Shown here piece by piece: positions 4,957-32,965 of a stretch of DNA of 64,000 nucleotides; the first letter of the stretch is position 1, and the number at the start of each line of letters is the position of its first letter. Source of the stretch: Pseudomonadota bacterium. Lineage in GTDB: Bacteria > Pseudomonadota > Gammaproteobacteria > Xanthomonadales > Ahniellaceae. The translations under genes and the position numbers were made by a program. Under the pieces are notes generated by a model. The model made no database searches. It saw only the letters and a list, made by a program, of their open reading frames with translations, and was not told the DNA's origin. Where the stretch lies: contig JALHNO010000003.1 in the NCBI GenBank assembly GCA_022843465.1, positions 246,955 through 310,954 on the forward strand, written 5' to 3'.

Positions 4957-5774
4957 TGCTGGCTGCCTGGGTCGATGGCGTTGCCGGTTCTGACCTCCCG
5001 ATCTCCGATCGGGCGTTGCATTATGGCGATGCCATTTTCACTACGCTGCGCGTGCACGCGGCTCAGGCCTGCTGGCTGCAGGCGCATCTGCAACGACTGC
5101 AGCAGGCCGCAGACGCACTGCGGATGCCGATGTTCGACTGGTCGGCCGTGCATGCAGACATTGAGCGCGCCGCTGCACATCCGCAGGCCGGAGTCGTCAA
5201 GGTGATTCTCAGCCGCGGCGATGGCGCACGCGGCTATGCCATCGACGGCAGCATCGGTCGCCGACTTGTCGTCGTCTATGGCAGGCCCGCAACCGACCCT
5301 GCCATCCATGCGCGTGGCGTGGCGCTACGCATTGCCGATCTGGTTCTGTCGGATCAGCCTGCGCTCGCCGGTCTCAAGCACGGCAACCGGCTCGAGCAGA
5401 TTCTGGCGCGTTCGGAGTGCGTCGATCCAGGCATCTACGATGTGCTGCTGGCCGATGCCCGCGGTCATGTGATATCGGCGACATCGGCCAATCTGTTTGC
5501 GCGTTTTGGCGATGAGGTCCGCACGCCGCTGCTGAGCCGAGCCGGGGTCGCCGGTGTCGCCCGATCCCGGATCCTGCAGCAACTCGCCGGCACGGCCGTG
5601 GTCACGGAAATTGCGCTGGATTCGTTGTACCTTGCCGATGAACTGTTTCTGAGCAACTGCGTGCGTGGCATTGTGCCGGTGCGCTCGCTTGGCGATCATC
5701 GCTATACCGGGATGGCGACGGCGCAGGCCTTGATGCGTAGCCTGCACACATCACTCGGTCTGCCGATTCCTTGA
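4956..5774 (+). CDS. pabC: Aminodeoxychorismate lyase
   Basis: A 272-residue fold-type IV PLP enzyme that splits aminodeoxychorismate into p-aminobenzoate and pyruvate. The N-terminal DRALHYGDAIFTTLR motif is characteristic. The PLP-binding Lys is in LKHGNRLEQILAR, and the cofactor phosphate is contacted by the later SATSANLF segment. Length agrees with other PabC proteins. It overlaps the pabB stop and is followed after ten bases by mltG, the standard gammaproteobacterial arrangement. A branched-chain or D-amino acid aminotransferase is the alternative for the fold, but the context argues against it. Confidence 0.93.
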   Translation: MLAAWVDGVAGSDLPISDRALHYGDAIFTTLRVHAAQACWLQAHLQRLQQAADALRMPMFDWSAVHADIERAAAHPQAGVVKVILSRGDGARGYAIDGSIGRRLVVVYGRPATDPAIHARGVALRIADLVLSDQPALAGLKHGNRLEQILARSECVDPGIYDVLLADARGHVISATSANLFARFGDEVRTPLLSRAGVAGVARSRILQQLAGTAVVTEIALDSLYLADELFLSNCVRGIVPVRSLGDHRYTGMATAQALMRSLHTSLGLPIP

Positions 5775-19292: not shown

Positions 19293-20054
19293 TCAGCGCG
19301 CCAGCCAGCCGCCATCGACCGCGACTACGCTGCCATGCATGTAGTTGGATGCGGCGGATGCGAGAAATACCGCAGCGCCACCCAGCTCCTCGGGTTGTCC
19401 CCAATGACCGGCGGGAATGCGCGCAAGGATGTCACGGTTGCGTTGTTCGTCGGCGCGCAGGGCGGTGGTGTTGTTGGTGGCGAAGTAGCCCGGCGCGATC
19501 GCGTTGACATTGATGCGGTGCGCGGCCCATTCGTTGGCGAGCAATCGGGTCAGGCCGAGCAGGCCCGACTTGCTGGCGGTGTAGCTCGCCACCCGGATGC
19601 CGCCCTGGAAGCTGAGCATCGACGCGATATTGATGATCTTGCCGGGTCGATGGGTCGCCAGCAGATGACGGGCGAAGGCCTGCGAGAGGAAGAACGCGCT
19701 CTTGAGGTTGACGTCCATCACCGCGTCCCAATCCTCCTCGCTGAAATCGACGGCGGCGTTGCGGCGGATGGTGCCCGCATTGTTGACGAGGATATCGAGC
19801 TTGCCGAAGGCGGCCACGGCAGAATCCATCGCAGTCGAAAGTGCTGCGCCGGCGTCGAGACTGCCTTCGACCCAACGGCAGCTGCGCCCGCTCGCTTTCA
19901 CCACAGCAACGGTTTCATCCGGCGCGCTGCGCCCGAAGGCGACGATGTCGGCGCCTGCTTGCGCCAGGGCGATGGCGATCGCCTGCCCAAGCCCGGTATT
20001 GGCGCCGGTGACGAGGGCGACGCGGCCATCGAGCTTGAATTGTTCCAGAATCAT
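19293..20054 (-). CDS. kduD: 2-dehydro-3-deoxy-D-gluconate 5-dehydrogenase
   Basis: A 253-residue short-chain dehydrogenase that reduces 2,5-diketo-3-deoxygluconate to 2-keto-3-deoxygluconate in pectin breakdown. The cofactor motif TGANTGLGQ is at about residues 16-24, NNAG is present, and the catalytic Ser/Tyr/Lys are in ASMLSFQGG and SYTASKSG. Length and the NTGLGQ and TIRR segments agree with KduD. It follows kduI with nine bases between them, which fixes the role more firmly than the SDR motifs alone. A generic SDR is the alternative. Confidence 0.93.
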   Translation of the reverse strand: MILEQFKLDGRVALVTGANTGLGQAIAIALAQAGADIVAFGRSAPDETVAVVKASGRSCRWVEGSLDAGAALSTAMDSAVAAFGKLDILVNNAGTIRRNAAVDFSEEDWDAVMDVNLKSAFFLSQAFARHLLATHRPGKIINIASMLSFQGGIRVASYTASKSGLLGLTRLLANEWAAHRINVNAIAPGYFATNNTTALRADEQRNRDILARIPAGHWGQPEELGGAAVFLASAASNYMHGSVVAVDGGWLAR

Positions 20055-20063
20055 CGCTGGCCC

Positions 20064-20912
20064 CTACTTGAGCTGACAGATGTCGAGCACTTTCATATCG
20101 GTGTAGTCGAGATTCTCACCGCCCATTGCCCAGATGAATCCGTAGTTGCGCGTGCCCGAGCCCATATGGATGGACCAGGGCGGCGAGACCACGGCCTCCT
20201 CGTTGGCGACCACGATGTGACGGGCGGCATCGGGTTCGCCCATGAAATGGAAGATGCGCTCGTCGGCACCGAGCCCGAAATAGAAATAGACCTCGGAGCG
20301 TCGATCATGCAGATGCGGCGGCATCGTATTCCACACGCTGCCGGTCTTGAGCAGGGTCAGTCCGAGCAGCAGCTGGCAGGATTTGCAGGTCGCCGGCACG
20401 ATGTACTGGTAGATGGTGCGCTCGTTGGAAGTCTCCAGCGCGCCGCGCTCCAGCGGTACCGCCATGTCGATGGAGATATGCACGGTGTCGTAGCGCGCAT
20501 GAGCCGGTGTCGAAGCGAGATAGAAGCGCGCAGGAGCAGTAGCGTTGTCCGAGGCGAAGCTGACCTCGCTGCTCCCCATCGGAATGTACAGGCCGTCGCG
20601 CTGCTTCATTGCATATGCACTGCCATCAACCGTGACGGTACCGGGACCGTCGCCGACATTGACCACGCCGAGTTCCCGTCTCGAGAGAAAGGGCTGCCCG
20701 GCCGCGCTTGCCGGCTCGCTATGCTGCGGCAGGGAAACAGCGGCGCTCACTGGGGCCGCACCACCAATGACAAAGCGCTCGTTGTGGCTGTAGTTGAGCC
20801 GTACGCTGTCGGCGACGAAGAGTTCGGTGACCAGATAGCGCTCGCGCAACTGTTCGTTGCTGGCGCCCGCCATCATGTCGGGGTGGGTGGCGTGCAGGGT
20901 CTTCTGGAACAT
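20064..20912 (-). CDS. kduI: 5-dehydro-4-deoxy-D-glucuronate isomerase
   Basis: A 282-residue cupin isomerase that turns 5-keto-4-deoxyuronate (from unsaturated galacturonate) into 2,5-diketo-3-deoxygluconate. The zinc-binding region [13 protein letters not shown] supplies two His and the Glu, and the later [20 protein letters not shown] segment supplies the last His and the family signature. Length matches KduI of Escherichia (278). The start at 20912 has an AAGGAG site eight bases before it; the longer frame to 20984 would cover the promoter and operator. First gene of kduI-kduD. Confidence 0.96.
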
Positions 20913-20969
20913 TTTGCATACTCCTTGCGGCAATTCGATCGCGACGCGGTGCTTTGGTTTCGGGTCTAT

Positions 20970-20987
20970 GGTAACCGGTGTCAATTC
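20970..20987. promoter_or_regulatory. Predicted LacI-family operator before kduI
   Basis: The core ACCGGTGTCA lies at 20974-20983, with its nearer edge 62 bases before the kduI ATG. The same 10 bases, centred on CCGG as LacI-family sites are on CG, stand at the same distance before the TonB-dependent receptor and at 66 bases before the pectate lyase. The natural regulator is the LacI protein encoded immediately upstream. Binding is inferred, not shown. Confidence 0.65.
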
Positions 20988-21021
20988 AGCTGTGAAATGG
21001 CCCGGCTGCGAGGCGGTGGTG

Positions 21022-22134
21022 TCAGCCCTTTGGGGGTTGGCAGGAGTCGCGCACGCTCAGGTGCGGCGTGACCGCCATGTTCGGTGGCGATCGCGGTCCG
21101 CGCAATGCGGGCTCGCCGGCAAGCAGGATATTGGCCGCCTGACGACCGATATCGCGGATCGGCAGATGGATGGTCGAGAGCGCAGGCCAGAGTTGCGATG
21201 CCAGCGGGCTGTCGTCGTAGCCGACCACCGACAGATCGCCCGGAATCGACAGGCCCATACGCAGGGCTGCCTTGTAGACGCCGGCTGCCATCTCGTCATT
21301 GCAGGCGAAGATCGCCGTCGGGCGCGGTGTACGCTGCAGGAGCTTTTCGGCGCCGGCGACACCGGACTCGAAGGTATAGCCGCCCTCGTAGGCGCAGTCG
21401 GCCGGCAACTGGATGCCGCGCTTTGCCAGTCCGTCGATGAAGCCGCCACCACGTTCAATCGAGGAACGGTAGCGGCGCGGTCCGGTAATCAAGCCAAGGT
21501 TTCGATGCCCGAGCGATTCCAGATAATTGGCGACCTCAATGCCAGCGAGACGATCATGGGTCTGCAGCATCCGGGCCGGTTCGTCCAGTGCGATCGACGC
21601 GATACGCACGTAGCGGCAGCCCATTTCGCGCAGCGCATCGGCGAGGTCCTGATCCTCGGACACGCGCGGTATCAGAATGACGCCGAACAGCTTTTGCCGC
21701 TGCACGAAGGAGCGGATTCCCTGGATATAGTCCTCGCTCTTGCTGTCGCAGGGATGCACGACCAGTTCGAAGCCGGTATTGCGCAAGGCGTCGAGCGCAC
21801 CGTACTGCATGTTGACGATGTACTGCGCCGTCGGATTGTCGTAGATCAGGCCGATCAGAAACGAGCGCCGGAACGCCAGTCCGCGCGCCTGCGGATCCGG
21901 GGCGTAGCCGATCTGCTGCATCAGAGCCTGCACACGTTCGCGGGTGTCCGGTCGCACCAGGGGCGAGTCGTTGATCACGCGCGACACGGTCTTCTTGGAT
22001 ACGCCCGCCATCCGCGCGACGTCGTTTATGGTGCTCTTGCCGCCTTCCGTCATCGCCTTGGCAGTGCCCGGTTCTACCTGCGATGGCGGTGCCGATGCGG
22101 CTGTCTTCCTGCGGGCGGTGTTCTGCTTCTTCAT
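21022..22134 (-). CDS. LacI-family transcriptional regulator of the pectin locus
   Basis: A 370-residue repressor-type regulator. After a 33-residue low-complexity N-terminal tail, the LacI HTH starts at [19 protein letters not shown] with the hinge helix region near [23 protein letters not shown] (in pieces). The periplasmic-binding-protein-like ligand domain follows, with [11 protein letters not shown] and [13 protein letters not shown] as markers. A sugar acid such as 2-keto-3-deoxygluconate is the likely inducer by analogy with KdgR-type LacI proteins. It sits between the TRAP genes (50-bp gap, with a CCTGCGC/GCGCAGG inverted repeat at 22162-22179) and kduI. An internal ATG at 22053 is a possible shorter start. 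Confidence 0.93.
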
Positions 22135-22184
22135 GATCCAAGTGTAATCTCACCGAGGTCGCCTGCGCGCATGCGCAGGTCGAC

Positions 22185-23465
22185 TCAACGCAGGGCCGCG
22201 GGTAGCCATAGCGACAGCCCCGGAATGAACGACACCAGCATGAGTACTGCGAGCGCCGCCAGCCAGAACGGCCAGATGGTCTTCAGCGTTCTGGCGACAT
22301 CGATCTGGCCGATCGCCGCGCCAACGAACAGCACTGATCCGACCGGAGGGGTCACCAGCCCGATGCCACCGGCAAGGATCAGCACAACGCCAAAATGCAG
22401 GGGGTCGATGCCGAAGGCACGCGCCACCGGCAGAAAAATCGGCGTACAGATCAGGATCATCGGGGCGAGGTCCATGAAGGTCCCCAATGCCAGCAGGATG
22501 ACGACGATCAGCAGCAGCACGGTCACTGGCGAGTGGGCGATGCCCTGCAGGGCTTCGACGGTGGCTGCCGGCACCTGAAGATAGGCGAGCAACCAGCCGA
22601 ACACGCTCGCCGATGCGATCACGAACAGGATCATGCCGGTGGTTCGCGTGGCCGAGATCACGGCCTCGAAGCAGGCCGACCACGGCAGGGATCGATACGC
22701 CAGACCGGTCAGCAGCAGGGCATACGCCACGGCCACCGCAGCGCTCTCGATGGCCGTGAATATGCCAGCGCGGATACCGAGAAAGATCATCGCCACCAGC
22801 AGCAGTCCGGGAAGCGCCGAGACCAATCGGAGCACAACTACCCGCATGCCCGGAAAGACCTCCACCGCGTAGCCACGTCGGCGCGCGACCAGCCAGCCGG
22901 TGATCATCAGGGCCAGCGTCATCAGCAGTGCCGGTACAACGCCGGCTGCGAACAGATCGGCAATTGACAGGCCGCCGCCGGCACCAGCGGAGTACAGAAT
23001 CAGATTGTGCGAAGGCGGTACCAGCAGGGCAACCAGGGCGGCGGTCACGCTGACATTGACGGCAAAATCGCGATCGAAACCGCGCTTGACCATCTGCGGA
23101 ATCATTGCGCCGCCGACCGCCGAGACATCGGCAATCGCCGAGCCGGAGACGCCGCCGAAGAACAGCGATGAGAGTACGCTCACCTGGCCGAGGCCACCGC
23201 GCAGATGCCCGACCAGAGCCGAAGCGAGCGCGATGAGGCGCTCCGACAAGCCTCCCCGCAGCATGATCTCGCCGGCAAAGATGAAAAGTGGAATGGCGAT
23301 CAAAGTGGCGCTGCTGGAGCCCGCGGCGGTCTGTTGTGCAAGCACGATGCCGGGGATATCGAGATACAGCAGGGTGGCGAGACTGGCGGCGGCGAGTGCG
23401 AATGCCACCGGCAAGCCGATGGCGAGCAGGATGGCAAAGGCAAGGAACAGCAGGGCGATGGCCAT
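22185..23465 (-). CDS. dctM: TRAP transporter large permease (DctM-like)
   Basis: A 426-residue integral membrane protein with about 12 hydrophobic segments, the transport subunit of a TRAP (sodium-driven, binding-protein-dependent) uptake system. Family markers are IPLFIFAGEIMLRGG, FFGGVSGSAIADVSAVG, LVPPSHNLILYS and GLVTPPVGSVLFVG. It follows dctQ after two bases and dctP lies further upstream, giving the complete DctPQM set. Pectin-locus context suggests a uronate, unsaturated digalacturonate or ketodeoxyuronate as substrate. Confidence 0.94.
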   Translation of the reverse strand: MAIALLFLAFAILLAIGLPVAFALAAASLATLLYLDIPGIVLAQQTAAGSSSATLIAIPLFIFAGEIMLRGGLSERLIALASALVGHLRGGLGQVSVLSSLFFGGVSGSAIADVSAVGGAMIPQMVKRGFDRDFAVNVSVTAALVALLVPPSHNLILYSAGAGGGLSIADLFAAGVVPALLMTLALMITGWLVARRRGYAVEVFPGMRVVVLRLVSALPGLLLVAMIFLGIRAGIFTAIESAAVAVAYALLLTGLAYRSLPWSACFEAVISATRTTGMILFVIASASVFGWLLAYLQVPAATVEALQGIAHSPVTVLLLIVVILLALGTFMDLAPMILICTPIFLPVARAFGIDPLHFGVVLILAGGIGLVTPPVGSVLFVGAAIGQIDVARTLKTIWPFWLAALAVLMLVSFIPGLSLWLPAALR

Positions 23466-23467
23466 CC

Positions 23468-23980
23468 TCAGGCACTCCTCGCATCGGTGCGCCAGACTGC
23501 GTGCAGATGCGCGAGGGCGAATACGCTCATCAGCGCGCCGCCAATCATGAGGGGTGCATAAGCAGCACTCTGCGGCAGTGCGATGCCAGCCTGGTCGATC
23601 GCCCAGCCGTCGACCAGCAATTGCCAGGACCAGACCGCCAGACTGGTGCCGAGGGCCGCCACCAGAAGATGACGGATGGCCACGACTACGCGGCGCAAGC
23701 GCGTTGGCATCGCCTCAGCCAGCAGTTGGAAACTGAAATGACTCTGACTGTGGACGCCCGCGGCAGCGGCAAGACTCATGGTCGTGCAGAGCAGGAGCAG
23801 GGACACCGGTTCGCTCCAGGCGGGCGAGTCATTGAGCACATAGCGCGCGAACACCTGCCAGCCCTGCACGACTACCAGGCCGATCAGCGCGGCGCCCGCC
23901 AGCAACAGCGCAAGCTGCGCCAGCCGCTGCAGCAATGGGTTCTTGTGCGCCTGCTGGAATTTCTCCTCGGCTGTATTCAT
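23468..23980 (-). CDS. dctQ: TRAP transporter small permease (DctQ-like)
   Basis: A 170-residue membrane protein with four helices (about residues 20-40, 58-76, 99-118, 136-156), the small subunit that pairs with DctM. The FARYVLNDSPAWSEPVSLLL motif between the first two helices is the family signature. Its start overlaps the dctP stop by four bases and its stop is two bases before dctM, so the three proteins should be made in concert. Confidence 0.92.
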   Translation of the reverse strand: MNTAEEKFQQAHKNPLLQRLAQLALLLAGAALIGLVVVQGWQVFARYVLNDSPAWSEPVSLLLLCTTMSLAAAAGVHSQSHFSFQLLAEAMPTRLRRVVVAIRHLLVAALGTSLAVWSWQLLVDGWAIDQAGIALPQSAAYAPLMIGGALMSVFALAHLHAVWRTDARSA

Positions 23981-24969
23981 CCCGTTGCCTGCTCCCTGAT
24001 GACCCGGTAGATCCGATCAATATGGGGGTCGCGCCGGTAGCGCTCGAGCACGGGCGCAGCCGCTTTCCTGAAGGCGGCGATATCGACCTCCACCTGCTCG
24101 ACTCCGGCCTCGGTGATGGCGGCGCGCGCGGCCGACTCGCCCTCGTCCCAGAGCTTTCGCATGACAGCCACCGACTCACCGGCCAGCCGGCGCAGCAGTA
24201 CCTGGTCCTCGCTATCGAGCGACTGGAAACTCTGTCTGGAAATCACCAGCAAGTCTGGCGCGTGGCTGTGTTCGCTTTGCGACCAGTAGCGCGCGGCTTC
24301 GAAATGACGGCTGGCGTGAAAGCTGAGGAGATTGTTCTCGGCGCCATCGATCAAGCGGGTTTCCAGTGCCGAATAGACTGCGCCATAGGCGAGCGGGGTC
24401 GGGTTGGCGCCGAAGCCGCGCAGCAGATCGAGAAACATGTCGGATGCCGGGACCCGCAGTTTCATGCCGTGCAGGTCCTGCGGCTGCTGTACTGGACGGC
24501 GCGCGTTGTAGAAGCAGCGCGCGCCGCTGTCATAGATTGCCAGACCGATCAGATCGCGGCGCTCGAAATCGGCAAAGACCTCCGTGCCGACCGGCCCATC
24601 GAGCACATGCCGCAGATGCGCAATGGAATCGAACGCAAACGGCAGGCAGAGCGCCGAAGTCAGCGGAAACGCGTTGTTGAGCGCACCCGCGTAGACCCGA
24701 GTCAGATCGAGCACGCCAAGACGCACCATATCGATCGCATCCGACTCACGACCGAGTTGGCCCGAGTGGTACTGGCGCAGGGCGAGGCGGCCCTGGGTGT
24801 GGAGTTCCAACTGCTCACCGATCCAGCGTACTGCGAGTACGGTTGGGTACTGTGCCGGATGCACATCGCTGGCGGTCAGCATGCGTGTGGTGCCGGCATC
24901 GATCGTGCGGCTGCATCCGATCTGTGCGCACAGCGCCGCTGCGCCGAGCACCAGTTGCCGACGCTTCAT
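23977..24969 (-). CDS. dctP: TRAP transporter substrate-binding protein (DctP-like)
   Basis: A 330-residue extracytoplasmic solute receptor. The short signal peptide ends at a possible lipobox (AQIGC, Cys 19), which is not ideal, so it may be a lipoprotein or freely periplasmic. The conserved ligand-binding Arg is expected in GMKLRVPASDMF, and the GAVYSALETRLIDGAENN motif is typical of DctP proteins that bind sugar acids. The start overlaps the stop of the hydratase-like gene (ATGA). The ligand is inferred from the locus to be a pectin-derived acid. Confidence 0.93.
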   Translation of the reverse strand: MKRRQLVLGAAALCAQIGCSRTIDAGTTRMLTASDVHPAQYPTVLAVRWIGEQLELHTQGRLALRQYHSGQLGRESDAIDMVRLGVLDLTRVYAGALNNAFPLTSALCLPFAFDSIAHLRHVLDGPVGTEVFADFERRDLIGLAIYDSGARCFYNARRPVQQPQDLHGMKLRVPASDMFLDLLRGFGANPTPLAYGAVYSALETRLIDGAENNLLSFHASRHFEAARYWSQSEHSHAPDLLVISRQSFQSLDSEDQVLLRRLAGESVAVMRKLWDEGESAARAAITEAGVEQVEVDIAAFRKAAAPVLERYRRDPHIDRIYRVIREQATG

Positions 24970-25826
24970 GGCGTGGCCTGCCGGGATGAATCGACGACCA
25001 TGGCAACGGCGGCGACAGCACGGCAGTCGATGTCACCCCAGGGGCCAAAACTGATCCGGGCGGACTCGCCCGGCAGGATGTCGTGGATGCCTGTAGCGGC
25101 GCCGGTAGTGATCAGCATGCCCTTGCGCATGGACAGACCGCGGCGCGCGCAGCGTCCCAGTGCAAACGCGAGTGCCGAGCGCAGTCCGCCGGGAATGCTG
25201 GCAGCACCGCCGAGCGCCGGCTCGCGTCCTTCAATACTGCAGGAACAGCGCATCTCGAACTCGGATCTGTTGATCCAATCGGGTATCTCGCGACCGAGGA
25301 TCAGGCCGGCATTGTTGCCAAAATCCGCGGCAACGGCGCAGGGGCCGAGCTCATTGATCATCGCCATCGGACTGCCTGCGGTCTCCACGCCTATATGCAG
25401 CGAGGCGACCAGCGCGACTGCTTCGTCCGCAGTCCAATGCAACTTTCCAGCTGGCGCATCGTCGCCGAGCCGGAACACGTACTCGGCTTCGACTGCGCAG
25501 AAGCCACCGACGAAGGCGGGGAAATCGAGACGATGTCCCGGCTGGTCGTGCCAGACCGAGCGACTGAAGATCGGGCCGGTCACCCGATCATCGCCATCGG
25601 CATCACGTCGCGCTGCACTGATGTAGCCAACCTTCCACCCGGCGATCACATCGGGCCAAAGCGCAATCGCCGCATCCTGGCAGGCATAGGCCTCGCGCAG
25701 GCTGGTAGGCAGCATGCCGGGAAAGCCGGGCAGGGCCCGGGCTTCGAGTCGGGCGCGCACCAGCCGCGACGCTGCCTCGGCGCCCGGACTGGTTTCGGTG
25801 CTGCTGGTTGGCACACTGGCACTCAC
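24966..25826 (-). CDS. 2-keto-4-pentenoate hydratase / FAH-fold protein
   Basis: A 286-residue protein of the fumarylacetoacetate hydrolase fold, closest in motif to MhpD-like hydratases: GWKVGY near residue 60, the metal-binding VEAEYVF, and GNNAGLILG. It starts at GTG 25826 with AAGGGAG six bases before it; the extra codons upstream would run into the divergent promoter. It is the first gene of the unit with the TRAP genes, so it is likely induced by pectin. No step of the standard KduI/KduD/KdgK route needs it. It may act on a side product or an alternative keto-acid intermediate; this is open. Confidence 0.8.
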   Translation of the reverse strand: MSASVPTSSTETSPGAEAASRLVRARLEARALPGFPGMLPTSLREAYACQDAAIALWPDVIAGWKVGYISAARRDADGDDRVTGPIFSRSVWHDQPGHRLDFPAFVGGFCAVEAEYVFRLGDDAPAGKLHWTADEAVALVASLHIGVETAGSPMAMINELGPCAVAADFGNNAGLILGREIPDWINRSEFEMRCSCSIEGREPALGGAASIPGGLRSALAFALGRCARRGLSMRKGMLITTGAATGIHDILPGESARISFGPWGDIDCRAVAAVAMVVDSSRQATP

Positions 25827-25898
25827 GCATTGCTCCCTTTGCAGGCCGTGCTGCAATCAGTTCGGCCTACCGGATCCGGCCGCGACATGGTATCAAGG

Positions 25899-25912
25899 AA
25901 ACCGGTGTCATT
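25899..25912. promoter_or_regulatory. Predicted LacI-family operator between hydratase/TRAP genes and pectate lyase
   Basis: The core ACCGGTGTCA occupies 25901-25910 in the 149-bp divergent region. It is 66 bases before the pectate lyase ATG and 75 bases before the GTG of the hydratase-TRAP unit, so one site could control both directions. It is identical over ten bases to the sites before kduI and the TonB-dependent receptor. Confidence 0.62.
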
Positions 25913-25975
25913 TACATCGGGTACGGCCATGCTGCAAGCTTGGTTCCTGCAACGAAAGGCAAACTGGAGGGTGCG

Positions 25976-27382
25976 ATGGGCAAGCTGATCAGGGGTTCGG
26001 GAGCGGAGATTCGTCTGGATGGCGGCCGTGATGTCGATCTCAGATTTCCGCGGCGCCACTTCACTCCTGGCCGTGTGGTCGGCCTGCTGCTGATGCTGCT
26101 CTGGCTGTCGGCAAGTGCGCATACCGTACTGGCTGCAGATGCGACGGCGTTTCCCGGTGCCCAGGGCTGGGCTGCACATACGCCCGGAGGCCGGGGTGGA
26201 AAGATCATTCGTGTCAGCACGCTCACTGCCGATGGCCCCGGTTCGCTGCTCGAAGCACTGCGCACCCAGGGTCCACGCATTGTGGTGTTTGAAGTGGCGG
26301 GGGTCATCGATCTTGATCGACGCGAGGTGCGTATCGAACAACCATTCCTGACCATCGCTGGACAGACCGCGCCGATGCCGGGTATCACCTTGATACGCGG
26401 CGGACTGATCATCGCCACCCATGACGTGGTCGTGCGGCATATCCGGGTACGTCCGGGTGAGGCCGGTGCCGGCAAGATGAGCGGGGTGGACTACGATGCG
26501 ATCACCACGGTGCGCGGAGCACGCGATGTGATCATCGATCACTGCTCGCTGACCTGGGCCACCGATGAGAACCTCTCGGCTTCGAGTACGCGATTTGTCG
26601 GTCAAGACGAGGCCAGCTGGATGGCCGAAGCATCGCGCCGCATCACCTTCAGCAACAATCTCATCGCCGAAGGACTGGCGCACTCCAGCCACGGCAAGGG
26701 AGAGCACTCGAAGGGCTCGCTGATCCATGATCATGTCAGCGATATCCTGATCGTCGGCAACCTCTACGCGCACAACTACGAGCGCAATCCGCTGTTCAAG
26801 GGCGGTGCGCGTGGCCAGGTGATCAATAACCTGATCTACAACCCGGGCCAGCGTGGCATGCATTACAACCTGATCGCCGAGGAATGGCAGGGTCGCGAAT
26901 ACAGTCTTGGCGAGATGGTCGTGCGCGGCAATGTGCTGCGTGCGGGACCATCTACTGAACCGCTGGCGATGATGATGGTCGGCGGCTCGGGCCCGCTGCG
27001 CTATTTCGCGGACGACAATATTGCCGTCGACCGGATTGGCGAACGGCTTCCTGATTTCGGCCGCTATTCGACGGCGCCTGTAGCCCTTAGCACATTCAAC
27101 GTGGCTCCGGCTCTGCCGTTCGGCGTCCAGTTGTTGCCCGCACAGTCGGTGCAGGATGCGGTGATCGCCAAAGCCGGAGCGCGGCCCTGGGATCGCGATG
27201 ACATCGACCGTCGCATCGTCGCTGACACCATCGAGGGCCGCGGCAGCATCATCGACAGCGAGCAGCAGGTTGGCGGATATCCGAAGCACCCGCGGAGTTC
27301 GCAGGTATTCATTGCAGCTGACTGGGATCTCGACACCATGGAACCGCTCAAGCCGCTGCCGCGTCGTGAGCCGCTGCGCTGA
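25976..27382 (+). CDS. Pectate lyase, polysaccharide lyase family 1
   Basis: A 468-residue exported lyase that cleaves polygalacturonate by beta-elimination. The N-terminus is unusual: about 36 charged residues precede the hydrophobic segment GRVVGLLLMLLWLSASAHTV, with cleavage probably after VLA. The mature protein starts AFPGAQGWAAHTPGGRGG and runs through the parallel beta-helix with VFEVAGVIDL, FLTIAGQTAP, VVRHIRVRPGE, DVIIDHCSLTW and GNLYAHNYERNPLFKGG, the PL1 calcium and catalytic regions. GGAGGG lies just before the chosen ATG. The 3' end converges on the pectinesterase gene with 14 bases between. Confidence 0.93.
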   Translation: MGKLIRGSGAEIRLDGGRDVDLRFPRRHFTPGRVVGLLLMLLWLSASAHTVLAADATAFPGAQGWAAHTPGGRGGKIIRVSTLTADGPGSLLEALRTQGPRIVVFEVAGVIDLDRREVRIEQPFLTIAGQTAPMPGITLIRGGLIIATHDVVVRHIRVRPGEAGAGKMSGVDYDAITTVRGARDVIIDHCSLTWATDENLSASSTRFVGQDEASWMAEASRRITFSNNLIAEGLAHSSHGKGEHSKGSLIHDHVSDILIVGNLYAHNYERNPLFKGGARGQVINNLIYNPGQRGMHYNLIAEEWQGREYSLGEMVVRGNVLRAGPSTEPLAMMMVGGSGPLRYFADDNIAVDRIGERLPDFGRYSTAPVALSTFNVAPALPFGVQLLPAQSVQDAVIAKAGARPWDRDDIDRRIVADTIEGRGSIIDSEQQVGGYPKHPRSSQVFIAADWDLDTMEPLKPLPRREPLR

Positions 27383-27396
27383 TGTCTTGCCCAGCC

Positions 27397-28500
27397 TCAT
27401 GATGCCGGCTGCCAGTCGCCAAGGAGCGTTGCAGTGTCATGGAAAGCCGCGTCGCTGCGCTTCAACTGGCGACGCTGCGGGGCATCCAGCGCGCCGGGTC
27501 CGTGATTGCGATATTCGTACAGTCTGGCATCAGCTGGATCGAGCAGCGGCCGACTGCCGTCACGCGCACTGTAGGCCATCGCATCCCAGCCCTCGCCCGC
27601 GATATGCGCGTCCATCCAGCAGCGGCTGAAGAGGGCGCTGCCTACGGCATCCGGGTCCCCGTAGCTGCCGTCGGCGAAAGCGCGCGTCGGTCGCCAGGCG
27701 CGTCCGAGCAGCACACTGTCATCGGGCACCTCGGCTTCGCGCTCGAGCCGACAGCGGCCAAACAGCAGGCCGCCGACCTCGTTGCGCGGCGTGCTCGGTG
27801 CCGCGATGTAACCCAGGCGCGGCTTGCCGGGGCGGAATCTCGATGTCAGCGTACAGCGTGAAAACACCGCGCGACCGGCACCAAAGACAAAGTCCACACT
27901 CCCGGATATCCGGCAGTTGCTGAAGACAGTCCTGCCCTGATCGACAAAGACGGTGTCCTGATGGCCGATCAGATCGACGTCGGACAGCAGGCAGCGGTCG
28001 GCACCGCGATCCAGCATCAGGGCCACCGCTTGCAGGCCATTGCTTCCGATTGGCTGAAAATTCGGGTCATACAGGTGACCGAGATAGTCGAAGGCGTTTT
28101 CAATCGTCAGATTGCGCGCACAGAAATCCTCAGCGCACACGGTCAGGCTGGCGCAACCGCTGGTACCCCAGGGCATACCATAGGGTCCCTTCATGCCAGC
28201 GGCAGCATCGAAACTCAGGATGCTCTCGCGGCGATCCATGCCGATCAGATGGATATTCGGTTTGCTGATCACCAGCTTCTCGTGCCAGCGTCCAGACTCG
28301 ACTGCGATCCGGTAGGGCCGCCGAGGTCGCAACGGAGCCGCGTCGATGGCTGCGCCGACACTCGCGTAGTGGTTGGAGGCAGTCGGCCGGGAAGTGACGC
28401 GCGCATCCCAGGCAGCCGCCGGGAAAGCGGGCATCGCGCTCCCGCTGAGCCATAGTGCACCCATTGATCCGACGCAATGCAGAATCTGGCGGCGCCGCAT
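27397..28500 (-). CDS. Pectin methylesterase, carbohydrate esterase family 8
   Basis: A 367-residue exported esterase that removes methyl groups from pectin so that pectate lyase can act. The N-terminus (MRRRQILHCVGSMGALWLSG) is a signal peptide with a twin-Arg-like start. Active-site markers are all present: the first catalytic Asp in GHQDTVFVDQG, the second in SGSVDFVFGAG, and the conserved LGRAWRP Arg/Trp. GGGAG lies eight bases before the ATG. Length fits bacterial CE8 enzymes. Confidence 0.95.
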   Translation of the reverse strand: MRRRQILHCVGSMGALWLSGSAMPAFPAAAWDARVTSRPTASNHYASVGAAIDAAPLRPRRPYRIAVESGRWHEKLVISKPNIHLIGMDRRESILSFDAAAGMKGPYGMPWGTSGCASLTVCAEDFCARNLTIENAFDYLGHLYDPNFQPIGSNGLQAVALMLDRGADRCLLSDVDLIGHQDTVFVDQGRTVFSNCRISGSVDFVFGAGRAVFSRCTLTSRFRPGKPRLGYIAAPSTPRNEVGGLLFGRCRLEREAEVPDDSVLLGRAWRPTRAFADGSYGDPDAVGSALFSRCWMDAHIAGEGWDAMAYSARDGSRPLLDPADARLYEYRNHGPGALDAPQRRQLKRSDAAFHDTATLLGDWQPAS

Positions 28501-28773
28501 TCAGCGCTCCCGCCATATTGAAGTTGGAATCGCGCTGGCCAGCCATATGGCCGGCACATCACGATATCGGGCGTTGACGAGGGTGTGCATGCGACCGAGG
28601 TGATCCTGCATGCACGTTACGACGCGGCTGTCGTGACTCATCAGGCTTCTCCAGGCCATGGGCAGACGCGGGCGCAACTTGATGCGCCCGACCAGATCAT
28701 GTGGGTAAGAGCAACGCACCGCGGTGATCGGGGTCGGAGGAGATCGACACCGGTCACCGTGGCGCGTGCCACG

Positions 28774-31575
28774 CTAGAACTTGTAGCGAAACCCCGCCAG
28801 GTACTGGCGACCGGTAAAGTGGTACACCGATGCGCGGTCCCCGACCGAATCCACGTACTGGTCGTTGGGCTCGTCGGTCAAATTGATGCCCTCGAAAGTG
28901 ATGTCCATATTGTCTGTCAGCCTCCAGGTCGCGGAGACGTCGAGATTGCGGGTACCAATGGTGCCTTCCATATCGTTGTTGTTGCGACCCGGCACCGTCG
29001 TGAGGTAATCGTCGCGGTAGGTCGAGGAGGCGCGTATGCTGAAGCGTTCACGCTCGTAGTACAAAGTCACGCTGTAGGCATTGTTGGACAGGCCCACCAG
29101 GTCGGTGCGCAGCGACGGCGTTCCCGTCGATGTCACGTACTGGATCTTCGAATCGACATAGGTGTAGTTGAAGATCGCGCCGAAGCCATCGAAGGGTTGT
29201 GGCAGGAAGGTGAACGGCTGTTGCCAGCTGAGTTCCATGCCTTCAAGCTTTCCGCCAGGCGTATTGACCGGAACGTTGAACTGAAAGTCATCGTTGACGG
29301 TGGCGCCAGTACCCTCAAGCAGGCTCGCGGGCAGTCCGGACGTGCTGTACGGCCTGGTTTCGCGCGAGGTCTGCACGAAGCTGTCGATGTCCTTGTAGAA
29401 GAGCGCCAGACCGAGCAGAGATTGCTCGGCGAAATACCATTCGAAGCTCATGTCCACTGTTGTGGCGCGGAATGGATCGAGCAGCGGGTCACCACCAGTG
29501 ACTGTGCGCGCACCACCGCTGACCGATATAGAGACACCTGGTGTCAGATTGCCAAGCCCAGGTCTTGCCACGACCTTGGCGGCGCCAAGGCGGATCAGGA
29601 AATCCTCGCCCGCCTCCCAGACCAGGTTCATCGAGGGCAGGGTATCGCTGTAGTCACGATCTACGGTGAGGCCGACCTGTTGACCGCCGACGAGGGCAAA
29701 GCCGGTCGACGACTGGTCGGTGCGCACATAGCGCACGCCGAAATCTCCGCGCAATGGCCGGCCGAACATCTCGGTGTCGAATTCGCCCTGCAGCCACACT
29801 CCGTTGTCCTTCTCGGTGACCGAGCGATTGTTGCCACGCACGCTCGCAACCGAATCGGAAAGCGCAAAGGTTCCGGTGTCGCTGTAGATGCCAAAGACTT
29901 CGTTGAACGCATCGATATCGGGAATCAGCCAGCGGCTGATGCCGCCGCCGAGCGAACTGGTGTTGAATACCTGAGTCAGCATGGCGAGCGTGGTGCCGGC
30001 TGGCAGAGAGGGCACCGCCGTCTCCGATGCGCGTCGGCGCTCGGTGGTCGCGAATTCATACTGCTTCCAGTCAACACCGCCGCGAACTCGGAAGAAGTCG
30101 TTGACCTGCCAGCTCAGGTCGAACTCGACCGTCGTGAAGTCGTTGTCGGTGGTTTGCGGGCGCAGTCGGATTTCGGACAGGCCAGGGGCAAAGGTCCAAT
30201 TGTTGGGATCGGTGACGTCGAAGCCGTAGTCGATGATGGGCTGCCGGCTATTGCCGCGGTAGTCCCAGCTATAGCCATCGGCATCGGCGCGGTCCAAGGT
30301 GATTGTCGTCTGGATCGGGTTGTCGAACGAGGAGCGTGCGCTGCCGACCAGGGCATTCAGATTCACGCTGTCGCCGATTTCCTGGGCGAAGTCGAGGCTG
30401 ACCTGGGTGAACGTGGTCTCAAGCACATCGAAGCGGGTTTCGGAGCGTACGTCGACATTGTCGAACAGTCCGTACTCGAGATTGCCCGTGGGCGAGACCG
30501 AGCCATCGAGCACAATGGTCTGCGGCTTGCCTGCGCCGGTGCGGCTGAATGAGACCGCTTCAAGAAAATTCTCGGTGCGTTCGGCATCGAACTTGGCGTA
30601 CAGCCCATCGAGGGTGAACAGGGTGCCGGGATTTGGTTCGAACTGCAGCGCCGTGGTGACGCCGAGTCGTTGCTGATCGTGCTCCAGTACGCCGTAGCGC
30701 GGGATGCGCGGATGAAACGTATCGGCGCTGAGCGCGGGCGTATAAGGCGATGCAGCCGAGAAACCGCCGCTGCTGTTGCCGCGATCCCAGCGCACTGTGC
30801 TATGCCCCTGCTCGATCAACGAACGATCAGTGTAGGCAATCGACACCAGTGCGCCGATGCTGCCATCGGCGAACGTATTGCTGAGCAGCATCGCCCCGCG
30901 CGGATCGGAGTCATTCGAGAGATCGTTGTAGCCGACCTGTCCCGCAGTCACGAAGGTAAATCCATCGTAATCGAAAGGACGCGCAGTCTGCAGATCGACG
31001 GTGGCGCCAAGCGAGCCTTCGTCGACGTCGGCGGACGCGGTCTTGCGGACGGTGACGCTATTGAACAGATCGGACGCGAAGACATTGAAATCAAAGCCAC
31101 GGCCGCGATTGGCGCCGCCAGAACTGTCGGTTCCACCGGTGGTGGTCAGTGCTTCCATTCCATTGATGCGCACGCGTGCGAAATCCGGGCCCAGCCCGCG
31201 CACCGAGATGTTGCGACCTTCGCCGGCGTCGCGGGTGATCGATACGCCCGGGATGCGCTGCAGTGATTCGGCTAGATTGAGATCTGGGAACTTGCCGATG
31301 TCCTCGGCCACGATGGCGTCGATCTGGCCGCGCTCTTCGCGCTTGTTGTCCAGCGCTACCTGCAGACTGGCCTTGTAGGTGACGACGACTGTCGACAATT
31401 CGGTGGCATCCTTGTCATCGTCTGCCGCCTGGTCGGATGTCTCGGGATCGGTCTGGTCTGCCGCAGTCGTGGACTGTGCCCACAGCGCTGGGGTAAACCC
31501 GTATAGCGCGATCAGGATGGCGGCTGACAGAGCGGCGCGTGTCGGCGCTTTTGCTGTGGTTGCTGAGTGACTCAC
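28774..31575 (-). CDS. TonB-dependent outer-membrane receptor for pectin oligomers
   Basis: A 933-residue receptor of the Caulobacter/Xanthomonas type. It starts at GTG 31575 with AGGAGGG six bases before; the longer frame to 31758 covers both operators. A signal peptide ends near ALWAQS, then a short acidic linker leads to a TonB-box-like ELSTVVVT and the plug (DLNLAESLQRIPGVSITRD, RNISVRGLGPDFARVRINGM). The C-terminal barrel closes with GRQYLAGFRYKF, ending in Phe as outer-membrane proteins do. Context implies uptake of oligogalacturonides. The stop is followed by 273 bases without a gene before the pectinesterase start. Confidence 0.95.
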   Translation of the reverse strand: MSHSATTAKAPTRAALSAAILIALYGFTPALWAQSTTAADQTDPETSDQAADDDKDATELSTVVVTYKASLQVALDNKREERGQIDAIVAEDIGKFPDLNLAESLQRIPGVSITRDAGEGRNISVRGLGPDFARVRINGMEALTTTGGTDSSGGANRGRGFDFNVFASDLFNSVTVRKTASADVDEGSLGATVDLQTARPFDYDGFTFVTAGQVGYNDLSNDSDPRGAMLLSNTFADGSIGALVSIAYTDRSLIEQGHSTVRWDRGNSSGGFSAASPYTPALSADTFHPRIPRYGVLEHDQQRLGVTTALQFEPNPGTLFTLDGLYAKFDAERTENFLEAVSFSRTGAGKPQTIVLDGSVSPTGNLEYGLFDNVDVRSETRFDVLETTFTQVSLDFAQEIGDSVNLNALVGSARSSFDNPIQTTITLDRADADGYSWDYRGNSRQPIIDYGFDVTDPNNWTFAPGLSEIRLRPQTTDNDFTTVEFDLSWQVNDFFRVRGGVDWKQYEFATTERRRASETAVPSLPAGTTLAMLTQVFNTSSLGGGISRWLIPDIDAFNEVFGIYSDTGTFALSDSVASVRGNNRSVTEKDNGVWLQGEFDTEMFGRPLRGDFGVRYVRTDQSSTGFALVGGQQVGLTVDRDYSDTLPSMNLVWEAGEDFLIRLGAAKVVARPGLGNLTPGVSISVSGGARTVTGGDPLLDPFRATTVDMSFEWYFAEQSLLGLALFYKDIDSFVQTSRETRPYSTSGLPASLLEGTGATVNDDFQFNVPVNTPGGKLEGMELSWQQPFTFLPQPFDGFGAIFNYTYVDSKIQYVTSTGTPSLRTDLVGLSNNAYSVTLYYERERFSIRASSTYRDDYLTTVPGRNNNDMEGTIGTRNLDVSATWRLTDNMDITFEGINLTDEPNDQYVDSVGDRASVYHFTGRQYLAGFRYKF

Positions 31576-31945
31576 GAGGAACCCTCCTGTTGTCCGTGGT
31601 CGGGACGTGCGATGCGAGTTGGTGTGCGGGCAATTTTGACACCGGTAGCAAAAGACGCAAAACTGCATGGATGACACCGGTGGACAAAAGGCTAACAAAC
31701 AACGCAGCGCAGCAGCAAGGGGCAATTCTGCGACCGCTTCTTGGCGCCAACGGGACATTCAATTCTTGTCATGACAGGGTTGCCGTGGAGATGGGACACC
31801 AACGTTGGCCGAAATCTACGCATGCTGCACAGCAGCATGAACGGGTTCCGGTCTAAAAAGTCCTCTGATCCTTCCGGCAGTCGGCATCATGGACGCGCGC
31901 GGAAGTCGGCTTTCCGGTTGATGCAAGCCACATGGAGGAGTACGC
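31576..31945. promoter_or_regulatory. Divergent control region with two predicted LacI operators
   Basis: This 370-bp region separates the receptor gene and kdgK. Two copies of TGACACCGGT (the complement of ACCGGTGTCA) lie at 31637-31646 and 31672-31681, their left edges 35 bp apart. The first is 62 bases before the receptor GTG, the same distance as at kduI. Extended similarity includes GnACAAA-like bases to the right of each core. The rest, up to the kdgK ribosome site GGAGGAG at 31934-31940, shows no further repeat, ORF or clear promoter to me. Confidence 0.65.
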
Positions 31946-32965
31946 ATGAGCAAGTCGATCATCTGTTTTGGCGAACTGCTGCTGCGCCTGAGTGCGCCGG
32001 GCCGGCAGTTCCTGCTGCAGTCTCCCTCGCTCGAGGTGCATATCGGCGGAGCTGAAGCGAATGTTGCGGTTTCGCTGGCACGCCTTGGCCATCGCGTGTG
32101 CATGCTAAGTGCGGTGCCCGACAATCCGCTCGGCGCCGCGGCAGTGGGCGAGCTGCGTCGCCATGGTGTCGATACCTCCGGGGTGATAACGGCGAGCGGA
32201 CGCATGGGTCTGTACTTTCTGGTGCCAGGCGCCATCCATCGACCCAGCGAGGTGTTGTACGACCGCGCGGATTCGGCATTTTCGCGCCTGCATGTCAGCC
32301 AGCTGGCCACGACATCAGCATTTGCAGGCGCGGGCTGGCTGCACCTTTCAGGCGTGACACCCGCGCTCGGCAAGGGCGCCGCAGAAACTGCTGTGGAGCT
32401 GGCGCGCGCTGCTCGGGCGGCCGGGCTGTCGATCTCGTTCGATGGCAACTTCCGCGCCAAACTCTGGCAGTCCTGGGATGGTGATGCGGCGTTCTGGCTG
32501 CGGCAATTGATTGAGCAGGCCGACATCATCTTCGCTGATCATCGCGACATGGAAGTGGTGCTGGGAACCGATACCGAGGAGGCGCCCGCCCAGGAGCGCT
32601 TTGCGCTTGCGGCATGTGCGGCGTTCGCTGCGTTCCCGCGGCTCCGTCGTTTCTGTGCAACCGCGCGCGTACAACACAACGTCGATCATCACGCGCTCTC
32701 GGCGCTGATGGCCACCCGCGAAGGCAGTCTGCACAGCACGGCTTCGTACGAGATCACGCCGATCGTCGATCGGATCGGCGCCGGCGATGCCTTCGCAGCC
32801 GGCGTTCTGCACGGCCTGATCCATGGCATGAATGATCCCGACACCCTGCACTTCGGCTTGGGGGCAGCCTGTCTCAAGCATTCGGTGCCGGGCGATTTCA
32901 ACCTGGTTTCGGAATCCGATGTTGCCGCCTTTGTCGGCCGCGGCATGTACGATGTACGTCGCTGA
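31946..32965 (+). CDS. kdgK: 2-dehydro-3-deoxygluconokinase
   Basis: A 339-residue PfkB-family sugar kinase that phosphorylates 2-keto-3-deoxygluconate to KDPG, the step after KduD. The N-terminal FGELLLRLSAPG and GGAEANVAVSLARLG motifs match KdgK, and the catalytic Asp lies in DRIGAGDAFAAGVLHGL. GGAGGAG lies five bases before the ATG. It diverges from the receptor gene, so both may respond to the same regulator. The KDPG aldolase needed next is not in the window. Confidence 0.93.
   Translation: MSKSIICFGELLLRLSAPGRQFLLQSPSLEVHIGGAEANVAVSLARLGHRVCMLSAVPDNPLGAAAVGELRRHGVDTSGVITASGRMGLYFLVPGAIHRPSEVLYDRADSAFSRLHVSQLATTSAFAGAGWLHLSGVTPALGKGAAETAVELARAARAAGLSISFDGNFRAKLWQSWDGDAAFWLRQLIEQADIIFADHRDMEVVLGTDTEEAPAQERFALAACAAFAAFPRLRRFCATARVQHNVDHHALSALMATREGSLHSTASYEITPIVDRIGAGDAFAAGVLHGLIHGMNDPDTLHFGLGAACLKHSVPGDFNLVSESDVAAFVGRGMYDVRR

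Follow-up and report, generated by a model that had tools for sequence, protein, structure and literature searches.

Enterobacterial KdgR belongs to the IclR family, and KdgR-type regulators act on a set of targets comprising lyase, kduI, kduD, kdgK, and uptake. In this study, we analyzed a 64,000-nucleotide stretch of DNA from a gammaproteobacterium of the Ahniellaceae (assembly GCA_022843465.1, contig JALHNO010000003.1, positions 246,955 to 310,954; hereafter the window). Promoters of its pectin locus carry four copies of the 10-mer ACCGGTGTCA, and one gene of the locus, at 21022-22134, encodes a LacI family protein. We consider it probable, at roughly 90%, that the four sites are operators of this protein and that it works like KdgR as the local repressor of pectin breakdown.

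LacI family sites have been described as palindromes, highly conserved inverted repeats with a central CG, and the spacing of tandem sites peaks at 13, 22, and 32 bp, with less than 1% of the sites in coding regions (Ravcheev et al. 2014, PMC4052901). The KdgR placed in the accessible text of that report is from Bacteroides. In the Escherichia coli gal operon, the GalR operator OI lies approximately 27 bp beyond the ATG of galE, and 113 bp separate it from OE (PMC4693257). The pectin carbohydrate-utilization (CUT) locus of Xanthomonas campestris contains a polygalacturonate-induced TonB-dependent receptor, XCC0120, adjoining pectin methylesterase and pectate lyase genes (Blanvillain et al. 2007, PMC1790865). 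Pectate lyase activity in X. campestris needs the TonB system by a mechanism unclear to the authors, who suggested that imported galacturonides might be sensed inside the cell by a transcriptional regulator (Vorholter et al. 2012, PMC3551730). The uronate regulators named in the available part of PMC5507952 are others, not this LacI protein. Literature searches with the operator string, the regulator, and the asymmetry found no description of the operator among the papers listed, those from the string search being judged by title and opening lines of the abstract; they did not cover RegPrecise, which may list it.

An exact search of the window found ACCGGTGTCA at 20974-20983 and 25901-25910 on the forward strand and at 31637-31646 and 31672-31681 on the reverse strand, as stated in the original prediction, and all four copies lie in pectin promoters. 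The core-to-start distances given there were also confirmed, namely 62 bp at kduI (ATG at 20912), 66 bp at the pectate lyase (ATG at 25976), and 62 bp at the receptor (GTG at 31575). The fourth site lies 97 bp before the receptor, which has two upstream operators 35 bp apart, both within the divergent region common to the receptor and kdgK. The center of the operator is CC/GG at the window sites. In 100 dinucleotide shuffles of the window, the 10-mer occurred 0.09 times on average, and no shuffle contained four copies.

The genome (5,183,495 bp in 45 contigs, with the window at G000:C3:246955-310954) contains 20 exact copies of ACCGGTGTCA, 16 of them beyond the pectin locus, and the bare 10-mer is not unique. 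By our own reading of open reading frames, ten of these 16 are within long open frames (L001-L003, L011, L013-L015, and L017-L019; L and G numbers are our handles for loci and genomes), three are in a dispersed repeat (L004, L009, and L012), and three are at or near gene starts (L010, L016, and L020). The repeat carries CACCGGTGTCAGGTTTGAT in these three places, at approximately position 1501 of each, and one of its copies is located 2.9 kb before the window. It had been proposed that a motif equally common in coding DNA and in pectin promoters would refute the regulon; this was not the case. The non-coding DNA of the pectin genes, approximately 0.9 kb, has four copies and the rest of the genome 16 (Poisson P ~2e-12). 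The whole-genome scan with flanks, also called for in the original prediction, returned exact matches at the pectin locus only, two for the 14-mer GGWAACCGGTGTCA and one for TGNYACCGGTGTCA. The far receptor site, TGTCCACCGGTGTCA, has a left arm one base longer and matches neither. With a single mismatch allowed, GGWAACCGGTGTCA and TGNYACCGGTGTCA had 9 and 19 genome matches, mostly in open frames as judged by eye from frame starts; no pectin gene was recognized at them in this reading by eye, which included no family search. We take the regulon in this genome as probably confined to the pectin locus.

Conservation of the sites was investigated in loci selected with only the LacI protein as query, independently of the motif, covering the best 78 of 114 relatives with up to 10 kb on each side. 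They came from Lysobacterales, Rhodocyclaceae, another beta-proteobacterium, Niveispirillum and relatives, a Hyphomonadaceae bacterium, sphingomonads, and erythrobacters. The exact 10-mer was present in 75 of the 78 loci (all except L062, L081, and L096). Across the loci there were 205 operator matches, three of them inside mapped genes. With the window included, ACCGGTGTCA was the commonest 10-mer in the 300 bp upstream of kduI, hydratase, pectate lyase, receptor, and kdgK, and it was not the top-ranked one upstream of LacI. For individual counts, taken upstream of the tblastn hit, regions shorter than 150 bp were dropped and the window was left out. The 10-mer was found upstream of kduI in 40/48 relatives, hydratase in 57/69, pectate lyase in 46/46, receptor in 21/39, kdgK in 10/37, and LacI in 22/78; conservation is strong at kduI and the lyase and low at kdgK. 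Both the lyase and the hydratase counts bear on the operator at 25897-25910. Control regions were nearly empty (kduD 0/67, dctM 0/50, dctQ 0/50, dctP 1/49, and pectinesterase 0/11). No P-value is attached to these counts because the relatives are not mutually independent.

The link to the LacI protein was then examined in 299 genomes of the order, 79 of which have a close LacI protein (E at most 1e-90) and 220 of which do not. GGWAACCGGTGTCA was present in 47/79 LacI-positive against 14/220 LacI-negative genomes, and in the 47 positive genomes, 63 of 69 sites were no more than 12 kb from the LacI gene. Of the 32 positive genomes that lack the 14-mer, 14 were examined together with 2 others for comparison (16 regions). 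Ten of the 14 had the exact 10-mer at pectin promoters next to another left arm, commonly GGTAAACC, one base longer. The recognition helix SKKTVSR was present in all 16 of these regions and in 59 of the 61 readable LacI copies (81 in total, 20 not read by the pattern); the remaining two are STKTVSR paralogues. These second copies adjoin the pectin locus in L042 (13361-14386) and L049 (13560-14603), and the same operator lies approximately 100-120 bp upstream of them. Camas et al. (PMC2978694) give a recognition code in which Arg20 is paired with G at -6, which is C at +6 of the other arm. This C is present in the right arm and in 166 of 202 left arms (the 202 matches outside mapped genes, chosen by ACC and the exact right arm); no Lys-Lys entry was found in the accessible part of that code. 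The sites are present, they are conserved, and they accompany the LacI gene. Footprinting in LacI-selected loci and co-occurrence in the 299 genomes support the original prediction that the four sites form a regulon of the LacI protein at 21022-22134.

All 14 LacI-negative genomes with the motif were covered by 15 examined regions, which included two of the three G118 sites and one of the two G017 sites. Two regions were linked to pectin, one at kduI (G059) and one at a diverged LacI protein (G070; 42-45% identity, same helix), which adjoins the 10-mer with four matches in three places. No mapped pectin gene was near the other 13, of which seven were in an open frame and six, by our filter, neither in nor before one. 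Among the six unlinked GGWAACCGGTGTCA sites of LacI-positive genomes, five were examined and the G035:C98 site was left out. In L233 and L234 (near 5040-5230) the site is near the longest-frame start of an unlinked PF09492 pectic lyase gene; in L230 (near 4822) and L231 (near 5302) it is near the longest-frame start of a carboxylesterase; no gene was assigned to the fifth.

Several observations weigh against this assignment of the sites. A target among kduI, hydratase, lyase, receptor, kdgK, and LacI could not be named for 30 of the 205 matches; one preceded dctP, and the other 29 had no mapped gene within 500 bp downstream. Not even the 8-mer CGGTGTCA was found upstream of 8/48 kduI, 12/69 hydratase, 12/39 receptor, and 25/37 kdgK genes. 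The 14-mer is missing from the 32 positive genomes mentioned above, and 4 of the 14 examined among them had no 10-mer site (L134, L137, L138, and L139). L134 has LacI, kdgK, and a weak kduD-like match, and the contig of L137 ends before the hydratase promoter. L081 and L096 retain SKKTVSR and lack an exact site. Finally, LacI family sites have been described as palindromes, and this operator is not one. L138 and L139 carry orphan LacI orthologues with the same recognition helix; neither a mapped pectin gene nor an exact operator is present in the region examined around them.

Based on these results, we infer binding, repression, operon structure, promoter positions, autoregulation, and ligand as follows. 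Without inducer, a LacI dimer on the CG-centered site would block three or four transcription units. These would be kduI-kduD and the divergent hydratase-dctPQM-lacI and pectate lyase units, which would share the single operator at 25897-25910. The receptor would be under two operators, perhaps together with the divergent kdgK. The left arm of kduI-type sites, which reads TACCNN on the gene strand, would be positioned where a -10 box is expected. A breakdown product, most likely 2-keto-3-deoxygluconate (KDG) or a pathway neighbor, would release the repressor. Since lacI is the last gene of the hydratase group, we propose that it is self-regulated through the 25901 site.

The 10-mer might also be due to chance or to the composition of a GC-rich genome. 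This would fit the 16 additional genome copies, ten of them in long open frames, and the weak enrichment that CGGTGTCA shows by itself (6 copies in the window where 2.6 are expected, a number that 5 of 100 shuffles attain). This explanation is refuted by the footprinting in relatives, and the shuffle mean and the restriction of the extended motifs to the locus also argue against it, leaving it a negligible probability. The sites might instead be bound by another regulator, either a second LacI paralogue or a global factor, with the local LacI protein controlling something else. Paralogues do exist, such as the STKTVSR copy adjoining the same operator in L042 and L049, and the core fits the general LacI-type pattern. 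Yet loci picked by this LacI protein alone carry the motif in three proteobacterial classes, the orphan orthologues without pectin genes are also without the exact site in the region examined, and the diverged protein of G070 again adjoins the 10-mer. We regard a different regulator as very improbable.

It is also conceivable, although unlikely, that some promoters are activated by the LacI protein, or both activated and repressed. The position of the far operators, at 97 bp in the window and up to approximately 257 bp before the receptor start in relatives, is not obviously a blocking one; the kduI site, however, covers the predicted spacer and -10 box, which is a usual position for repression. 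Galacturonate, an unsaturated oligogalacturonide, or a 5-keto intermediate could take the place of KDG, and any pathway intermediate would serve because the candidate regulon covers uptake, lyase, kduI/kduD, and kdgK; nothing decisive speaks against these alternatives. We regard an inducer other than KDG as a serious possibility, if short of an even chance. Repression by the LacI protein at 21022-22134 remains our preferred interpretation of the four sites.

The original prediction had described the left half-site as relaxed, and this was borne out. Our results point to a lopsided operator in which CGGTGTCA, the center and right arm, is constant and the left arm varies by promoter. Read outwards, the left arms of the 202 matches were GGTTACC in 83, GGTTTCC in 44, and GGTTTAC in 18, with other forms in the remainder, and the left arm tracks the promoter class. 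The only two perfect palindromes in this set are both strands of one L063 site. More were found outside the set, in L136 and L220, so symmetric sites are encountered by relatives of the protein. Because the matches were chosen by ACC and the right arm, selection accounts for part of the constancy of the right arm. The 10-mer rank test is free of this effect, and together with the forms AGCGGTGTCA and ATCGGTGTCA, which occur at receptor promoters of relatives, it is the reason for taking CGGTGTCA as the constant part. The class of the far receptor operator also occurs in relatives, for example in L021, L022, and L035-L037.

The variable arm may have a second function. GACACCGGTTACC occurs 91 times in the window and the 78 loci together. 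A TTG precedes TACC at a spacing of exactly 17 bp in 31 of these sites, and at each other spacing from 13 to 21 bp in 0 or 1; the remaining 60 sites do not have this TTG. A scan for sigma-70-like promoters found one at kduI, against a shuffle mean of 0.1, and none in 25800-26000 or 31560-31950. The TTG spacing and the kduI scan together suggest that the left arm at kduI-type sites plausibly doubles as the promoter, contributing its -10 box. This overlap does not account for the left arm at the hydratase/lyase site, and the orientation of the kduI site is reversed in L026, L032, and L061.

In a sister clade, the operator core was found inside a gene. GACACCGGTTACC lies within the signal-peptide codons of the orthologous receptor (M......RKTPVT-LLA), where the codons ACA-CCG-GTT-ACC form the core. 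A pattern that took every coding of R-K-T-P-V-T-x-L-A was scanned against the 299 genomes and gave 26 matches in 25 genomes of 5 genera (L182-L207). All 25 are among the 79 LacI-positive genomes (Fisher p ~1e-16, not corrected for relatedness). In 24 of the 26, the receptor is 54-61% identical to that of the window; the outliers are L207 (50% over 296 residues) and L198 (77% over 155). At the core, threonine is encoded by ACA in 26/26 against 9/971 threonine codons elsewhere in the same partial reading frames, and valine by GTT in 25/26 against 17/861 valine codons elsewhere in those partial frames. The flanking AAG (25/26) and TTG (23/26) are nearly fixed, and the next leucine and alanine codons vary. 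Eight more loci have the codon core (L026, L031, L032, L041, L044, L046, L056, and L061), with the weaker form AAA-ACA-CCG-GTA-ACC in L041 and an uncertain receptor start codon at a contig edge in L061. These results strongly support a DNA-level constraint on the signal-peptide codons of the receptor, though the genomes share ancestry.

The same receptors also have operators upstream. A CGGTGTCA site is present within 300 bp upstream of all 26 genes and two such sites in 20; their core is AGCGGT or ATCGGT, with one additional ACCGGT further up in L189. Where the upstream sequence suffices, a variant operator such as TTTGACCAGCGGTGTCAT can be read. The internal core is centered at +33 in all 26 genes; measured center to center, 21 genes have the nearer upstream operator 91-102 bp away from it and the other 5 at 126-138 bp. 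Helical phasing of the paired receptor operators was not significant (Rayleigh test on distinct spacings, p ~0.2). We infer that LacI could bind the codon operator and form a repression loop with the upstream one. Because the operator core coincides with signal-peptide codons, we propose that the export signal and the off-switch of the receptor share the same bases. Taken together, we lean slightly towards a regulator that reads an inherently lopsided operator, with CGGTGTCA as a constant address and the other arm doubling as promoter or coding sequence, including the receptor codons of the sister clade and a gal-like loop.

A fifth site before the pectinesterase, ACCGGTGTCG, was part of the original prediction and was rejected. 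It differs from the 10-mer by one mismatch, and the window has 9 such single-mismatch matches against 3.2 expected, a number reached by 2 of 100 shuffles. Twelve other pectinesterase loci were compared, and the 11 with an upstream region of 150 bp or more all lack a counterpart (10-mer with at most one mismatch, within 300 bp).

Table 1. Candidate operators and genes of the pectin locus (a slash marks the operator center)
Feature	Position	Strand	Remarks
Operator GGTAACC/GGTGTCA	20970-20983	+	62 bp before kduI; 10-mer in 40/48 relatives' kduI upstream regions
Operator GGAAACC/GGTGTCA	25897-25910	+	Between divergent hydratase/TRAP/lacI genes and pectate lyase
Near receptor operator TGCTACC/GGTGTCA	31637-31650	-	62 bp before TonB-dependent receptor
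Far receptor operator TGTCCACC/GGTGTCA	31672-31686	-	Extra left-arm base; 97 bp before receptor
Candidate kduI promoter TTCACA-17-TACCAT	20968-20996	-	Second hexamer overlaps operator left arm; consensus scan
Proposed fifth site ACCGGTGTCG	28745-28754	-	Rejected, not conserved
kduD, 2-dehydro-3-deoxygluconate 5-dehydrogenase	19293-20054	-	TIGR01832 above cut-off
kduI, 5-dehydro-4-deoxyglucuronate isomerase	20064-20912	-	NF002091 above cut-off
LacI family regulator	21022-22134	-	PF00356 66.5 bits, PF13377 124.4 bits; recognition helix SKKTVSR
TRAP transporter DctM	22185-23465	-	PF06808
TRAP transporter DctQ	23468-23980	-	PF04290
TRAP solute-binding protein DctP	23977-24969	-	PF03480, NF037995
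Hydratase/decarboxylase-like protein	24966-25826	-	First gene of TRAP-lacI group; start codon approximate
Pectate lyase (PelZ-like)	25976-27382	+	PF00544; NF041900 below its cut-off
Pectinesterase (PemA-like)	27397-28500	-	PF01095; NF041896 below its cut-off
TonB-dependent receptor, Xanthomonas/Caulobacter type	28774-31575	-	TIGR01782 above cut-off
KDG-kinase-like PfkB kinase (kdgK)	31946-32965	+	PF00294; NCBIfam KDG-kinase models below cut-offs; divergent from receptor

The features are listed in Table 1. The regulator has both an N-terminal helix-turn-helix and a periplasmic-binding-type sensor domain, as well as the TVSR recognition helix with Arg20 and a central-CG site. It passes no named NCBIfam cut-off and is therefore a LacI family protein without a curated name. 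The hydratase-like protein had no Pfam or NCBIfam match at 1e-3, and its nearest solved relative is a distant one, 4-oxalocrotonate decarboxylase 8ih6 (E 3.6e-8). Its gene, the first of the TRAP-lacI group, is retained in many related loci. In L145, a BD-FAE-type esterase (389-1441, by family search) stands opposite the hydratase where the pectate lyase would otherwise be, with the operator common to both, and a similar arrangement was seen by eye in L152 (around 1305-2834). A search for pectate lyase in five genomes found nothing.

For pectin use in Lysobacterales, sphingomonads, and some beta-proteobacteria, these results offer an operator and a regulator that can be tested. The LacI protein is a candidate for an intracellular galacturonide-responsive regulator of the kind suggested for X. 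campestris. An operator kept in signal-peptide codons would show clearly how protein-coding sequence can be constrained by a regulatory site, and an upstream operator approximately 95 bp from it would allow a gal-like repression loop.

The candidate target set would be the same as that of KdgR-type regulators, with a LacI family regulator here instead of the IclR one of enterobacteria. The XCC0120 locus resembles the window in combining receptor, pectin esterase, and lyase genes, and the available text of PMC1790865 names no operator or regulator for it. As in the LacI regulons described by Ravcheev et al. (PMC4052901, in the part available), the sites have a CG pair, lie 30-140 bp before the start, occur in tandem, and belong to a sugar regulon adjacent to its regulator. 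In a list of 19 same-strand receptor operator pairs compiled by hand and including the window, 9 are spaced at 22 bp and 10 at 29-35 bp; the list omits closer L063 sites and pairs over 100 bp apart in several sphingomonad and beta-proteobacterial loci. Unlike the palindromes of that report, one arm varies here by promoter, and the sister clade has an operator in a coding region. The relatives' receptor genes, with one upstream and one internal operator, are similar in sequence layout to gal OE/OI (PMC4693257, as far as its accessible text goes), whereas here the two-operator arrangement is found in related genomes and not in the window, and the loop would be a prediction. Like lac O1, as described in the accessible part of PMC2978694, the operator has non-identical half-sites, one with an intervening base; unlike lac O1, its constant arm is shared by several promoters and three classes of bacteria.

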